Shown here piece after piece: positions 6,686 to 56,690 of a stretch of DNA of 64,000 nt. Source of the stretch: Branchiostoma floridae (Eukaryota > Chordata > Leptocardii > Amphioxiformes > Branchiostomatidae); contig NC_049982.1 of the NCBI RefSeq assembly GCF_000003815.2, positions 15,580,956 to 15,644,955 of the forward strand, read 5' to 3'. Each line of letters starts with the position of its first letter. The stretch's first letter is position 1. The position numbers and the translations under genes are program-made. The notes below the pieces were generated by a model that was not told where the DNA came from, searched no databases, and worked only from the letters and a program-made list of their open reading frames with translations.

Positions 6686-6689
6686 TCTC

Positions 6690-7450
6690 TGAGTTGCACA
6701 TCAACAATACACGTGCCCCTGTCCCTGGTGCTGAATTGCATATCAACGATACTTTTGTCCCTGTCCCGGGTGCTCAATTGCCCATCAACAACAGTTTTGC
6801 CCTTGTCCCTGGTGCTGAATTGCACATCAACAACAGTTTTGCCTCTGTCCCTTGTACTGAATTGCACATCAACAACAGTTTTGCCTCTGTCCCTGGTACT
6901 GAATTGCACATCAACAACAGTTTGTCTCTGTCCCGGGTGCTCAATTGCCCATCAACAACAGTTTTGCCCTTGTCCCTGGTGCTGAATTGCGCATCAACAA
7001 CAGTTTTGCCTCTGTCCCTTGTACTGAATTGCACATCAACAACAGTTTTGCCTCTGTCCCTGAATTGCACATCAACAACAGTTTATCTCTGTCCCGGGTG
7101 CTCAATTGCCCACCAACAACAGTTTTGCCCTTGTCCCTGGTGCTGAATTGCGCATCAACAACAGTTTTGCCTCTGTCCCTTGTACTGAATTGCACATCAA
7201 CCACAGTTTTGCCTCTGTCCCTGGTACTGAATTGCACATTTACAATACTTTTTTTCGCTGTCCCTGGGTCTGAATGAGTTGCACATCAGCAATACTTTCC
7301 CCCTCTCCTTGGTGCTGAATGATGCATCAGCAATACTTTTGCCGCTGTTCCTGGTGCTGAAGGACACACAAACAAGAACGATGTCCCTGTCCTTGAATGA
7401 AGCATCAGCACGACTGGTGTCTATGTCCCTGGGACTGAATGACACGCCAA
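6690..7450. repeat. 42-bp minisatellite with higher-order organisation
   Basis: About 18 tandem units, mostly 42 bp, built around GAATTGCACATCAACAACAG followed by TTTTGCC and CTGTCCCTGGT. Units vary in a pattern: a variant with CTCAATTGCCCATC recurs at about 6772, 6940 and 7101, giving a higher-order period of about four units (168 then 161 bp). Because 42 is divisible by three, both strands stay open for long stretches (14-residue repeats such as ELHINNSFASVPGT on plus). Units shortened by 2 bp or more break the frames, and there is no start context or splice site, so I treat it as non-coding satellite. Units degrade toward 7450. Confidence 0.9.
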
Positions 7451-23700: not shown

Positions 23701-26700
23701 CTTACAAAGTGAAGAGATTATCTACCAGACATTTTCCCTGGAGGAGCTGGAGGATGTGAGTCTGGAGGGGGATATTGAGATCCCCTGTCTGTCCTCCATC
23801 CACCACAACTGGGAGGGGCACCTGGCCTTCATCATCATCTGGGGCAAACACAACCAGCTCTACCTCTCTGGTAGGCCTCCTCGCCTCTGCTCAGGGTTAT
23901 GCTTGATACAGCATGTGTTGGACTGTTTGTGAATTGTGTTTTTTAATCGGAGAACTCAATAAGTCGTGATTGGATGGTCACGATTTTTTCTCGTTCTCTT
24001 TTTGTGAATGATGAGAAAAGTTTTGAGATTAAAGATGATCATTTGATTGAGAGTTACATATTTGTAATTTGTGCAACATACTACAAATTCAGACATTAAC
24101 TTCTGTGATTTGGATATGAAGCAATGATAATATTGCAAGACTGTCATACTTAGCGTCAGTTTTTCTGTACCCAAAGTGTCCTCTTAAAACTTACACAAAA
24201 TATATTTTTTCATGTCAAAGACATTCTCTATTCTCCGTATGTACATGTAGGTCTGACCAGGATCATTGCTGGAAAAGGTAGCAAGATGATTGATATTATT
24301 ATGGATTTGTGGTTTTGCTATGATGCACCAGATTCTTCTCAAGTACTGTCTACATGACACAACATAATATAGACTCCACAGTGTCTCATTTGCACAACTG
24401 TTAGCTGCACATTGATAGTTGCATTAGCAGAATGCTGGTTCCAAAATGAATAATGTGAAAGAAGCTCCATCTTAAGATTGGAATTCCGTTTTTCCCATTT
24501 TGAAATGTGCTAATATTTTCAATATAAAAGCACTTGGTGCAAAGTCTTTACATATGATTGACAAGTATGATGTACAGTTGTGAAATATGATAATAACTTT
24601 CATGAATATTCATTTTGAAAATTTTCTTCCTGCAGGAATTCCTGCAGGAATTCCTGCAGGAAGCGTTTTTCCTGCAGGAATTCCTGCAGGAAGCGTTTTT
24701 CCTGCAGGAATGCTGCAGGCATTCCTGCAGAAATTCCTGCAGGAGAAAGGTAAATTCCTGCAGGAAGAATGTTTCCTGCAGGAATTTCTGCAGGAATGGC
24801 CTTGACAATGACAGGAAGCATTCTTTATGCATTTAATTTTGTTTTGAAACTGTTAAACAATGCATTAGATTTCATTAGATGTTTCAGACTTGACTTTAAC
24901 TATGTATATAAAACAGATATATAATGGAGGCATTTTTTATTGTTTTGTTTTCCTAGTTTTATTGACTGTTGCTGGAGATGCCTGGCATTAGAAATAACTG
25001 ACCTATGAATGAACTTCACTTCAAGAAAATGCATTTCCTTCAGTGGCTACTCATATTTTTCAGAAGTACAGAAGCTTGGGCATGGTTACTTCTTTCATTT
25101 TTTTCTTTAATTCTTTAACATCACCACTTAGGGTTTATTAGTATCTAAGCCAATTTGATTGTACATATAGGTGCAAGTCAGGAACATAAACACAAAATTC
25201 ATAAATTTCATGACAGGCCTAAGCTTCCCTTAAAAGTATAAATTCAATTATTGTAAATTGCACATGTACTGTAAGGGTAGGGTGCCCTAATAGGATAATC
25301 ATTGGAGTCCATAAGAAAAGTACTGTACAATGAAAGTACAGTACTTTTAGTTACATGTTGTGTAAAAACCTTTATCCTATTATCAGTGCCAACCTGATGA
25401 AATTATTTTCGGAACTTCCAGTAGCTATTTACTGAATTCTAAACTGTAGTAAATCAAATAATACATTCAGTTGGTGGAAAAGTAGATGACATGAACCGCC
25501 TTGTTTGCCATGCTGATAGCTGGTGTTTGGGTTATAGAAACCAACCACTGGCGGCTTTATCTCATGATGCACCCCTCAGGGTAAAACATTGATCCTTTAT
25601 TAGCATATAGCCAGGTGGCATTCACCAGTCATATTTTATGTTGGTTATGACACTGTAACACAATATTAGAAGTGTCCCGAGCCGGGTGCGTGGACACCTA
25701 GAAATTCATTAAACACTGGTGCTAAATGAATCTTATTTATTAGGTTTTTGATACCTACTGGACAGCTGTGTTTAATGAAGTTCTAAGTGCCCAATAAAAA
25801 AATATAATCAACCGTCACCAGATCAGATCAGATCACAGAACATTGATCAATCAGAACAACACCCTGTCCTCATCTGGGACTCTTTACATGCTCTAAAATC
25901 CTTGNNNNNNNNNNNNNNNNNNNNNNNNNNNNNNNNNNNNNNNNNNNNNNNNNNNNNNNNNNNNNNNNNNNNNNNNNNNNNNNNNNNNNNNNNNNNNNNN
26001 NNNNNNNNNNNNNNNNNNNNNNNNNNNNNNNNNNNNNNNNNNNNNNNNNNNNNNNNNNNNNNNNNNNNNNNNNNNNNNNNNNNNNNNNNNNNNNNNNNNN
26101 NNNNNNNNNNNNNNNNNNNNNNNNNNNNNNNNNNNNNNNNNNNNNNNNNNNNNNNNNNNNNNNNNNNNNNNNNNNNNNNNNNNNNNNNNNNNNNNNNNNN
26201 NNNNNNNNNNNNNNNNNNNNNNNNNNNNNNNNNNNNNNNNNNNNNNNNNNNNNNNNNNNNNNNNNNNNNNNNNNNNNNNNNNNNNNNNNNNNNNNNNNNN
26301 NNNNNNNNNNNNNNNNNNNNNNNNNNNNNNGTTTAAGCAAGGGGGCTTTTTTCTGGGTTTCAGACAAAAACCTTCCTGATGATGGGTTTGAAGGCTGATA
26401 CTGATAGCCAGAATAAAGCTACCATTCCAGAATGGCTATCAGTATCACATCAAAATATATCCCACAGGCCTTCTAGTAAGTTCTACTCTTCAAAATCAAC
26501 CAGGAAAGTTTGCCAACACAGAGGGTATTGATATGTAAAATTTGGGGTCCTGGAGTATCTTGCAAATACAAGCAATTTTTGTACTATAGAGCCAGGCGTT
26601 GAAAAGCAGAAAGGCCCACAAAATAACAACAAACTTTTTGATAACCAAACTTATTGATAACCTGGGCTTTATCTGGTCCAAAGAACCATTATCTTTTTGA

Positions 26701-29700
26701 CTATTAATAAACTTGAAGCCCGCTATGAAGCTGTTTACCAGTATGATTCATTATAAGCCAGAAGGCCGACATAACCGCATTCCTCTGGAACAAAGAATTT
26801 GCCAATACTGTAACTTGAATAAGATAGAGGATGAGTGTCACTTTATTGTTTACTGTACTTTATACAACAACAAATTTGCAAAAGAAACGTCCTCTTTGAA
26901 AATATACAAGATATGTTCCCTATTTCCAATACTTGAATACCACGGAAAAAAATTTATATTTCTCATGCAATTAGATCAACCATACATTATTGATTCCATC
27001 TGTACTTATATTTATAACTGTTTTAAGAGGTGAGAAGAAGTTGAACTTGTAAATACTGGAATGTATTAGTATTTGTAGAGGTGATATTTTAGATACCTTT
27101 TTTTTAATCAAAATTGTACATTATCACTAGCGCTACAATCTGTACTTAGCTTGTTTGAGCACAAATGTACAATCAAGGTCATTGATTCATTATATAGAAA
27201 CAACAGGCAAAAGTTTGTTCCAGAGATTATTAAATTTGTAGTTTCCAAATCCTATTACATGGGCCTGTATATAAGGCACTCACTTTCCTCTTTTTGGTAA
27301 TTATGCACATTGTTATGCAGGTTCAAAGGAGGTCAGTTATTGTTAAGGCATGCTTCCCAATTAGCAAGTTGAATTAGCAAGTCCCACAGGGACTGTCCCA
27401 AAGCACTGGATGGAAAGATTCAGAACACCTCCCTGAGATCAAGGAGGTTGCTTCTTGCTGAGATATTTCTATACTGAACTGCTTTTGAGCCAGATTAGAA
27501 CTAGAAGAACTTCAAAATTGCAGAAACCTGAAAATTCACTTCTGGGATAGATTACCGGATTCGAATGGTTAAACCAGATCGGCCAATTAAGGAGTACTAA
27601 AAGCTCCTTGATCTCACCAAACTTGATCTGGCCTCTTTCAAGCTCCTTGATCTGGGTCAACACTTTNNNNNNNNNNNNNNNNNNNNNNNNNNNNNNNNNN
27701 NNNNNNNNNNNNNNNNNNNNNNNNNNNNNNNNNNNNNNNNNNNNNNNNNNNNNNNNNNNNNNNNNNCTTAGAATTCAGAAAAATGGTAAATTAGGTAGTG
27801 CTCTGCATTGCACTTTAGCCAACCTCTCACTTTACATAATATAATATAATATTATATACCATTGAAGCTTGGATCCAGGTTACATCCAGGTATGTGACGT
27901 CATACTTTGTGGCGTCACCCAGGAAAATGAAAGTTTTTAGATAATAATCTTATATTTAGGCCATGTTTCTGAATCAAAAATTTTTTTGAAACAGGATGTG
28001 TTTGAAGGCACTTGAAAGGCCATGAAAGAATGTAGCTTCTTACGGTTGCATAAGATAGTATTGTCAGCCTGCAAGATCCGCTTGGAGATTCTGATCATGA
28101 TAGACAAAGAAGCACAGTGCAAATGACACAGTAGGGTTCGGAGGACACCAACTGACTAGTCTAATTAGTCTGTTCTGTCAACTTTTAGCTTGAGTGGTAA
28201 ATGTGTTGGGTTCATGAGCTGGCGGGCCCAGGTTAAAATCCTGGGAGCCAGGCACAAATTTTTCTCTTGTGTTTCAGAAGTGTAAGGTTGTGAAGGACGT
28301 TGCACTTCTGTGAGGGCCTGCATGCCTTTTTCCGTTAAGTGTTATGAGCCATTTTAATTTACCGTTAATCGTTACCGACCCACTCTAATTCACCGTTAAG
28401 CGTTATCGGTATATTCTTCGTGAAGCGTATTGGTCGTTTTAATTCCACGTTAATCGTTACTTGTTATCCCGAATTCACCGTTAAGCATTACCAAGAAATT
28501 CTTTGTAACAAGTTATACCCACGAAGTCAAATGCCAGATAGAGCCCCTGAAAATGCAGGAAATGGTGTTTCAAAGGGTCCAGATTTCAAAATTTCTCCGA
28601 GCCTCCCGGCCGCTTCGGGTAAAAATATGTTGCGGAAGCGTCGCCCCTCCCCCTCCCAAAAAACCTTTTCACTCAAACAGATTTCAGTGTCCAACTTAGC
28701 ATAGTTTCCGGCAAAATTTTCTCATCGAATGCAGAAAATGAGGTTTCTCCAGACCTCCCTTGCAACGGCTTGCGGCTTTGGTGCTCACGACGACCTGGCG
28801 AAAACATGTTTCAGGGGCGTTGGCCCAAAAAATTTTCTCTTTAATAAAATGTCATTTGATTTACCTTCGTTGGCCAGCAAAATTTGTCCTTCAAAATGCA
28901 GTAAATGGCGTTTCAGACGGTCCAGACTTTTAAATTTCCCCGGACTTGTCTGGCAATTTCTCGTGCCGTCCGAGCTTGAAATGGTAAAAATATGTCGGAG
29001 GCCGGAGGTCAATTGCTACAACCATGTGTAATTTTGATGAAAATTTCATTATTCTGTCAGCAAAATTTGCCGGAAAATGCAGGAAATAGCATTTCAGAGG
29101 GCCATGATTTTAAAAAATTTCCCAGGGAGCATACCCCCCTACCCCCATACGATGCGTTGCGCCTTCGGCGCTCCATGTGCTGAAAATTTTGTCAGCAATA
29201 GTCCCCCCCAGCCTACAAGAAACTTGCTGTTGCCGCCTCTGGTGGGAGCACTGACCCAGGGAAGCAAACGTCATAGACACAGCAGACATTGTCCCTGTCA
29301 TTCCTTCGGGCTCTGGGCACCTTTTCCTTCTCACAATGCCATTAGTCTGATATTTTCAACCATCGAGGTAACCTAGTTTAGCGCCGTACAAAGAGGAACG
29401 AACGTCAATGTTTACTGTCATGCTTTGTAACCCCTCCTGGAATTTACCGTTAAGCGTTACCGGACCTTCTGAATTTACCGTTAAGCATTACCGGGCCTCC
29501 TGAATTCACCGTTAAGCATTACCAAGAACCCCCCATGCAGACCCTCTTCTGTGTCAGTGGGAAAGGTCACATTACCATGCATCCCTTTTTCTGAACTGAA
29601 CTGGTTTTAGCCTTGGTACCAATTTGCATCATAAGGCAAAATACAAACTGTTTAAAACTGTCTTGTTTTTTTTTTGCATCACAGGGCTTGAAAGTCATTT

Positions 29701-32700
29701 TTGCATGCACCTTAGGCTGAGTAGCCTGTGTTTACACAATCTATCGCTGGCTGGGGTTAATGACCCCTCCTAGGGCAGCAGCAATACTATAGGGCCGGCC
29801 GCTAGGAGCGCGATTTTAGTCAGGCTAGTAGCCTCCTTCACCGGCCTCTCTGGGAAGCTTGGCGTTTTTTTTTTCGGTGGGGGGGGGGTCGATTCGCGAT
29901 TTTTAATCGGGAATATTGCGGGAAAGGAATATATGCCGGGAAAGGAATATACACCGGAAAGCTGACGGCAGCANNNNNNNNNNNNNNNNNNNNNNNNNNN
30001 NNNNNNNNNNNNNNNNNNNNNNNNNNNNNNNNNNNNNNNNNNNNNNNNNNNNNNNNNNNNNNNNNNNNNNNNNTACCAAGGAGCTTTATCTGTCACTCAA
30101 GAAAGGGTTCGATATCTGGTGTGGCAACCAGTGAAACAACCAGAGGGGCGAGTAGAACAGAAAAAAACAACATCCCAACTCCCAGGATTCAAACCAGCAG
30201 CCGGATCACAAATCCAGTACGCTACCGCTGTCGCCACAAAAGCTCAGAGCTCCTTAGCAAGGACGGTAGGAACTACTTGAACCCACTGTTACACTAGTTG
30301 GGCAAAAGCAAACTTTTTTTGGGTCTTCATCCTGCACCAGGTTTTTTGGGAAGCAGTCATAGTCACTGTGCAACAGTGGTATCAAACGACCAAATGACCA
30401 ACTTTGAAAGTAGCCCCCCCAACTAGAAGCAGTCCAGCTTTTATTTTCGAGCGCTCGGGTCTGATTTTACCATGGTCATTACTGACAGAAGGGGGTCTGA
30501 TAGCGAGCAGTTGTTTAATGTAACGCAGCTTGAAGGGCAAATTGAGCAAGGCACAGCTGGATTGGAAATTAGGCACAGAGGTGCTGACTTCATTCCATGA
30601 TGCCTATATTAAACCTCCTTGGTTTGAGCAGTCTATTTATTACCTTATTATAAGTGGAGTCCACAATTACCATCAAATTTTCACAAAACTTCAAGAAAAA
30701 TTATTCATAGTTTACCTTTAAATTGACAAAGACAACCTTGATTTACCCTTTAGGTTTAACCATTTCATATTTAAATAGATTAGTGTAAAAGTGAACTTAG
30801 GTTTCTGAAATTCTGTAATTCTTCAGTCTGTAATTTCTTGTAATAGTGTACCCCCAAGTTCCAGGATTCTTTCTGAAGGCCTTAGGTCCTCAGCACTACA
30901 GGTAGCCAGGATGTTTGGACCTGGGGAATAATTAGTCCTTTGATAATTGATAATTGGACACCAGCATCCTTTGCATATCTATAGAACAATAGCTGACCTT
31001 ACTTTGAACCCGCATTACAATAGCGCATACTTACTTGAATTTTCAACAAGAGGAAGCAAGCCCCTGGCTTTCTTAGGCCCAATTTTAAACTTTATGAAAT
31101 ATTCTCTGGAACAAAAATTCAAGTGTTAATCTTATGATGGTCAAAATATGACCAACCAGATCAAACAAATCTCAAGTTGCTGACCAAGGAGCTTTCATTC
31201 TTTGCCACGTTCAACTTGGTACTGCATTTACAAGATATCATTGCATGCATGGAAGGAGCATTCGAATAGAGCAGTTTTCATTTGATGAAAACACCCATGT
31301 GTGAACAGCCGTAATGGCTCTGTCGGCACAACTGTTGAACATGTCATGGGCAACTTGGACCCCATTCAAATGAAAAAATACAAGTGAGTTAAATGAGGAA
31401 TCCCATTAAAGCTTTCTGTTGGATTAAAAAAATGCGTTCACATTTAATCGGATTAAACTCAAACTTGCGACCACGACCACCCCGAGTCGGGCACACGTCG
31501 TGCTTCCAAAATGTTGCCAGACTACCTCATAATTTTGAAGGATTTAGTGACATTGATATTATATATGATAACTGTTGAGAAATTGGCTGGCTTTTGATGC
31601 GTCGACAGTCAACAAGAACATGGCGCTTGTGAGGTCATACAGGTTGAACTGGGGGTAGAAATGTTGCGCGGGGTGTGATTATACTCTACATTTAACTGTA
31701 GTACAAAATGTAAATGTATATGTTGAAAAAGTTGCATGAATAGGAGAAACTACTACTAAAACGTTTGTTGCATACTTTTTTGCCGGTGTGTAGCACTCCT
31801 ATCTTAGTGTCATTGATTTAGATATGAATTATAAGGCCATTCCTGCAGAAATTCCTGCAGGAAACATTCTTCCTGCAGGAATTTACCTTTCTCCTGCAGG
31901 AATTTCTGCAGGAATGCCTGCAGCATTCCTGCAGGAAAAACGCTTCCTGCAGGAATTCCTGCAGGAAAAACGCTTCCTGCAGGAATTCCTGCAGGAATTC
32001 CTGCAGGAAGAAAATTTTCAAAATGAATATTCATGAAAGTTATTATCATATTTCACAACTGTGCATCATACTTGTCAATCATATGTAAAGACTTTGCACC
32101 AAGTGCTTTTATATTGAAAATATTAGCACATTTCAAAATGGGAAAAACGGAATTCCAATCTTAAGATGGAGCTTCTTGTGACTTCTTGTGTGGTGGGATT
32201 GATTAATTCTCCACGTTTGCTCACTGTAGGTACATTGTATAAAAATTATGGTTTGAATTTTTTTCTACCTTATTTTGTATATCCACACATGAAGAGTGTG
32301 GTGAAGAATGTTTTTGATGAGTAGAATAACCAAGGCCCAGGAACTGATGACTCAAAATTTTGTTGTGCTTTGTTGGTTTCTTTTCTTGTTCGCTTGTGAT
32401 CAAAATAACTGAATGAATTAAAGGGTCTAAATTTTCACATTATTCATGGTTGAATTTTGTCATCTAGATCTGGGTTGCCAGTTTGCCACTGTATTGCCAT
32501 GCTGTAATTTTGATAACTTACACAATTGCATAACTACACACATCATGATGATTTCTTCAGGCCTGAAGCCACACATCGAGAGCAGTAACTTTGATGAGCT
32601 GAGTACAGAGGACCTGTTGCCAGGGCAACACTGTGTGCTGGTGGCGGAGATCCAGCAGGAGGGAAGGCTGCACTTCATCGCTGTGGAGAAGAAAATGCCT

Positions 32701-56159: not shown

Positions 56160-56690
56160 CAAACAACATGCCCATAGCCAGGATTTTGGTTGGGGGGGTT
56201 CTTTTTAGTATTTGTGGGACAAAGGTGTGTGCTGCCTAGGGGGGTCCAGGGGCATGCTCCCCCGGAAAAATTGAAATCTTGACCCTCTGAAATGCCATTT
56301 CCTGCATTTTGACGGGCAAAATTCGCTGGCTATTAAAGTTTAATGAATTTTCTATTAAAATTCACAAGGCTTTTGGCATAAGTCTTTGAGGCTGACTCCC
56401 CCGACATATTTTCACCATGTCCAACACCGAAGTCACGAAGCATCGCAATGGAGGTCCGGGGAAATTTTGAAATCTGGACTCTCTGAAAAGCCATCTACTG
56501 CACAATTTTGCTGATATCTCACTAAGATTGAATGAAATGTCTATAAGTGAAAAATGCAAATCAGCCATGACTTTAAAAAAAAATCTTGGACATGAAAAAG
56601 TGGACCTTCCAGCGTGAAAAAGCAGACCTTTGAGCGTGTGTGTGGGGGGGTTCTTCCGAATCCCCTCTGGCTACAGGCATGAACAATGCC
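56160..56690 (-). repeat. Interspersed repeat related to the centre of the 28.3-29.5 kb element
   Basis: Read on the minus strand, it contains AAATGCAGGAAATGGCATTT followed by CAGAGGGTCAAGATTTCAA, the same unit found in tandem at 28550-29130. Two diverged units are visible (near 56270-56310 and 56455-56500), with a G-rich stretch at each side. This is another copy of the same repeat family. Confidence 0.6.

Follow-up and report, generated by a model that had tools for sequence, protein, structure and literature searches.

Positions 24459-32177 of a 64,000-nucleotide stretch of the Branchiostoma floridae genome (contig NC_049982.1; the whole stretch is called the window here, and coordinates given without a contig refer to it) hold a block that is, with a probability of about 0.93, one copy of a ~7.6-kb DNA transposon that is non-autonomous: a DDE-type cut-and-paste transposase, encoded at some other place, would move it in trans. 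The two arms of the block are terminal inverted repeats, and insertion duplicates 4 bp that are usually A/T-rich, with a pyrimidine before and a purine after them. The ~36 nearly identical copies descend from one master sequence, which already carried a fragment resembling a long interspersed nuclear element (LINE) and a hAT-like insert; older related families share these ends and have interiors that are related in part. A preliminary description, made from the letters of the window, had interpreted the block as a recently inserted, large DNA transposon whose arms are terminal inverted repeats and which duplicated 4 bp. This is supported by identical 4-bp flanks in 32 of 36 young copies and by a divergence of 0.19-0.82% between each of the 21 copies read and their per-site majority sequence.

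The left arm (24459-24803, forward strand, outer end AAGAAGCTCC) and the right arm (31833-32177, reverse strand) are each 345 nt long and are reverse complements of one another. Equal arms bordered by GTGA were described from the outset; the comparison confirms them and leaves exactly one mismatch, T/C at position 115. GTGA borders both arms on the outside, as the left (24455-24458) and right (32178-32181) target-site duplications. Within the window, blastn of the arms gave an E value of 4e-178, far above chance. The outer 168 bp of the arm are ordinary sequence, and its inner half repeats the 12-bp palindrome TTCCTGCAGGAA in an array (24627-24796 in the left arm, forward strand) that is also visible in the arms of older relatives. 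By analogy with Galileo, a Drosophila element compared below, these arrays are perhaps candidate binding sites for the moving enzyme. At 32172-32190 the window reads CTTCTTGTGA and then directly CTTCTTGTGT, so that the target next to the right arm looks like the end of the element itself, probably by coincidence.

A genome-wide count of paired arms, their spacing and their flanking 4-mers, proposed in the preliminary description, was made on one assembly of 513 Mb in 431 contigs. All 40 scored matches to the arm, among 144 candidates, were full-length at 99-100% identity. The 29-bp outer end, with up to three mismatches, occurs at 79 sites (40 forward, 39 reverse), and its reversed control at none. 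Seventy-four of these sites form 37 convergent pairs 2,145-23,376 bp in length (median 7,793), which, with their constant borders, are the paired repeats at the ends of a repeated unit that characterize a terminal-inverted-repeat transposon. Five sites are unpaired; one, on C12, gains a partner among the matches listed for the search with a 23-mer described below. Another, the only one of the five that was read, is the outermost arm of a copy on C16 (L018), whose 4-bp flanks match if that arm is taken as the end. This copy has a doubled end (L018:201-1973; C16:7137573 and 7139001), in which two arms of the same orientation lie 1.4 kb apart with a single N directly before the second; it is either a tandem duplication or an assembly join.

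Twenty-one complete young copies were read, including the window copy, and the ends of 15 further pairs were fetched. Thirteen of the latter are counted as young by interior matches of at least 97% identity and two (C18:14288350 and C13:2215328) by arms of at least 99%. In all 21 copies read the inner flanks of the arms are constant once orientation is considered, and the arm is sharply bordered on its inner and its outer side. Sharp borders on both sides would also suit two separate insertions, in opposite orientation, of a short 345-bp element. However, neither window arm has a duplication of its own and the shared GTGA sits outside the pair; the constant inner flanks, together with 37 convergent pairs that are not due to chance, leave this explanation with next to no probability. 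It is likewise extremely improbable that the arms are an assembly duplication or a haplotype artefact. Runs of N do lie between them, the doubled end on C16 adjoins a single N, and many N occur in a 23-kb pair on C18, with 4,524 in the 10 kb read as L030, but both window arms are well within gap-free stretches and have different flanks, the architecture recurs in the 37 pairs, and 10 of the 21 copies read contain no N at all. One pair, C1:28290332-28300603, is 10,272 bp long, exactly the length of the C13:1369267 copy with its later 2.7-kb insert, and has unmatched 4-bp flanks of its own; it may be a second-generation copy.

Identical 4-bp flanks were found in 20 of the 21 copies read and in 12 of the 15 further pairs, against a chance match of ~0.5% per pair expected from base composition. 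The duplication thus has the fixed length, 4 bp, that is typical of cut-and-paste insertion. At 21 sites, with both strands counted, the four duplicated positions are 79-88% A/T, and a pyrimidine before and a purine after them are seen in 88%, which gives the target pattern Y-WWWW-R.

What lies between the arms had seemed odd for a young transposon, and the preliminary description had considered that the arms recently mobilised a segment of chromosome. The interior (24804-31832) does resemble ordinary debris, and no coding sequence was recognised in it by copy comparison, frame lengths or Pfam. Yet it adjoins the arms in all 21 copies read, and its middle parts are also present in 18; in the other three the middle is deleted (L028) or mostly N (L016 and L029). 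Its blocks are collinear with the window copy, mostly at 95-99.7% identity, apart from internal deletions (such as those in L017 and L028), the N-rich L016 and L029, and L013, in which hAT-related stretches have diverged to 82-84%. Nine extra pieces, each in a single copy, have short repeats of 3-10 bp at their borders, as nested insertions of later date would, and further extra pieces are N runs or diverged stretches. A 701-bp interior probe gave 40 scored matches of 63 candidates in the genome. Of the 33 that were at least 97% identical, listed pairs contain 31; one lies in the doubled end on C16 and another (C17:8219598) ~9 kb from an unpaired arm. Seven matched at 72-84%: six inside older pairs, and C18:8284260 outside the listed pairs. 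An armless source segment was not seen among these 40 scored matches (63 candidates). A mobile arm pair that recently picked up and moved an ordinary piece of chromosome at this locus is therefore largely refuted and highly improbable, as the close matches lie in or near arm-bounded copies; capture of the interior in the distant past is possible. Old debris in a young transposon is no longer a puzzle, since the interior is part of the repeated unit.

Three N runs interrupt the window interior (25905-26330, 27667-27766 and 29974-30073), so the distance between the arms is approximate. Judged against the N-free copy L026, they represent ~429, 27 and 80 bases and therefore conceal no large gene. 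Because the interior is common to the copies, both recognisable pieces of debris belong to the unit that spread. The first is a decayed end fragment (26701-27033, forward strand), which we take to be LINE-like from its CxxC..H..C pattern; no Pfam match to it was found, and a similar peptide occurs in the older relative L038. The second is the non-autonomous hAT-like insert of the master copy, an element with its own duplication that had already been picked out in the preliminary description and is present at 28305-29553, including the 8-bp duplications CTTCTGTG. Both of its borders with the duplication were found in 14 of the 21 copies, the others being without one or both. At the same site L038 (L038:3902-3920) is without the insert and reads CTTCTGTGACTGTG, which keeps apparent parts of both duplications and resembles a hAT excision footprint or an altered empty site. 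Another diverged relative of the insert lies at 56237-56502, which is ~72% similar to its part 28897-29149. Elsewhere in the window, 6689-7361 is a minisatellite of ~16 copies of a 42-bp unit, open in several frames.

The near-identity of the arms had been ascribed to recent formation or to ongoing homogenisation. At position 115, 18 of 19 full-length left arms have T and 17 of 18 right arms have C; in L009 and L018 the two arms agree. The single mismatch is an inherited difference between left and right. The mean number of differences is 1.9 bases between the two arms of one copy (16 copies; five with arm length differences were excluded), 2.0 between left and right arms taken from different copies (326 comparisons) and 1.2 between arms of the same side (324 comparisons). 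Since the mismatch is side-specific and two arms of one copy resemble each other no more closely than left and right arms from different copies, the near-identity of the arms derives from the master copy, and ongoing homogenisation is not borne out.

The copies appear to be without a transposase of their own. Stop-to-stop frames of at least 150 amino acids and free of N occur in 4 of the 21 copies, all of them one debris stretch. L026, scanned in all six frames, gave no Pfam match at E values up to 1; it is the single young copy so scanned, and the 20 others as well as L038 were judged by frame length. Six chosen frames from the interior and the flanking gene gave one sub-threshold Pfam match only, and Rfam and transfer RNA scans of the window gave no match. 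Two solved-structure searches for the host gene yielded 0 matches and one chance match. The family might nevertheless be autonomous, with a transposase of an undescribed kind or one split into short interior exons, as Pfam may lack the superfamily and short exons could escape. We regard this as very unlikely. Between members of the family, 26 of 96, 7 of 32 and 27 of 102 indels in the aligned parts have lengths divisible by three, as expected without coding. Codon-like spacing of substitutions was seen in 0 of 23 testable windows (6 and 17 in two comparisons, the third having too few changes), and the longest open stretches are debris. As autonomous partner, a 13.3-kb pair of similar 23-mers on C4 (24426738/24440079) was considered and rejected after a 2.5-kb sample of its inside (L083), which contains a repetitive open frame of 573 amino acids with no similarity to the family or the window. 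Pfam found no transposase in L083, only a few matches below curated cut-offs. The sister elements L038, L039 and L040 were rejected in this role too, as none looks coding.

These sisters were reached through the ends. With up to three mismatches, a 23-mer of the end occurs at 122 sites (control 1+1), a variant of it at 39 (control 0+1) and a third form at 33 (control 0). L038 is flanked by GTCC on both sides and differs from L026 by 5.7% substitutions in aligned sites. L039, with TTTA on both sides, and L040 represent older families. Their members measure 8.4-9.0 kb and are related to L026 in part of their interiors; between L026 and L040, 10.9% of 3,288 aligned sites differ. Six-frame Pfam scans of L039 and L040 gave no transposase and a few matches below curated cut-offs. 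A check of ends found matching 4-mers in five of seven older pairs; other sister copies are known from their 16-base ends only, with the end L082 left out. In all, the older sister elements have ends and some interior sequence in common with the young family and, like it, look non-coding. Two short relatives with the same kind of ends, L042 (C5:23953390-23954109, 720 bp) and L041 (C4:24409527-24409744, 218 bp), have 4-bp flanks that are not identical.

We propose that a transposase encoded elsewhere would recognise the shared ends and the TTCCTGCAGGAA arrays, excise the whole unit and join it to a staggered 4-bp target. Copy number would grow by gap repair or by movement during replication, and the interior would be passive cargo. 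Several points weigh against a non-autonomous transposon moved in this way. Four of the 36 young pairs are without identical flanks (L015 is one base off; C18:14288350, C1:28290332 and C1:33873492 are unmatched), as are L040, L041, L042 and two of the seven older pairs. The target of the window copy, T-GTGA-C, matches the preferred pattern in part only. The Pfam scan covers one young copy, the evidence comes from one assembly, and an autonomous partner was not found, so that the moving enzyme is inferred.

Read as a non-autonomous transposon, an odd-looking block becomes a young mobile element, and ~36 insertions of ~7.6 kb, probably recent, are marked in a single animal genome. Such near-identical copies are likely insertion polymorphisms and substrates for rearrangement. 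The sister families open the questions of what lets an element of this size persist without coding and of which transposase mobilises it. A bolder idea, which we consider possible but rather unlikely, is that of a long-lived lineage of DNA transposons which encode nothing and yet, re-amplified again and again by a foreign transposase, stay at their full 6-9 kb and do not shrink to miniature inverted-repeat transposable elements. If this were true, there may be an advantage in a large non-coding length or in arms with palindrome arrays, or the enzyme may come from a superfamily, so far undescribed, that uses Y-WWWW-R targets. The element is of an ordinary kind; specialists may be interested in how large it is, in the absence of recognised coding sequence and in the fact that its lineage was amplified repeatedly.

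The element was not recognised in the passages and abstracts consulted on transposons; as this was not a search by name and Repbase was not compared, we do not claim that it is undescribed. Polinton/Maverick elements have a 6-bp duplication and self-synthesis genes, whereas the duplication here is 4 bp and Pfam found no such domain in L026. The published systems below are described from excerpts of the papers cited. Ginger1 and Ginger2 share the 4-bp duplication and are reported from lancelet, and the repeats of Ginger1, ~40-270 bp, are a further likeness (PMC2836005). However, in the excerpt their ends are TGTNR and the targets of Ginger1 CCGG or CCGT, and they are excluded by the ends AAGAAG or AAGAGG found here. 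The term 'foldback-type' in the preliminary description holds only loosely, given 345-bp arms around ~7 kb and a 4-bp duplication, and Mutator-type Foldback elements are excluded by their duplication of ~8-10 bp (PMC4079207). Tetris, a Foldback element of Drosophila, is closer in having tandem repeats within its arms, no coding capacity and a mobilising transposase that was not found, as that source describes it (PMC4079207); it differs in its 8-10-bp duplications and its only three structurally complete copies. Galileo, of the P superfamily in Drosophila, has long terminal repeats with internal tandem repeats proposed as secondary transposase sites, and most of its copies are without transposase (PMC3573991, PMC4079207). 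The long arms, their internal tandem repeats and the lack of a transposase in the copies are alike here, but Galileo has 7-bp duplications and a known transposase. Under the Repbase rule, the first 11 bp of a non-autonomous element match those of the autonomous one (PMC4455052). Sola2 is described with 4-bp A/T-rich target duplications (AWWT, ATAT, AAAT, ATTT) and ends of 12-21 bp (PMC3627910). The arms here are far longer and a Sola2 transposase was not seen; the likeness lies in the 4-bp duplication, 79-88% A/T at its four positions. No superfamily is assigned here; the A/T-rich 4-bp duplication fits Sola2.

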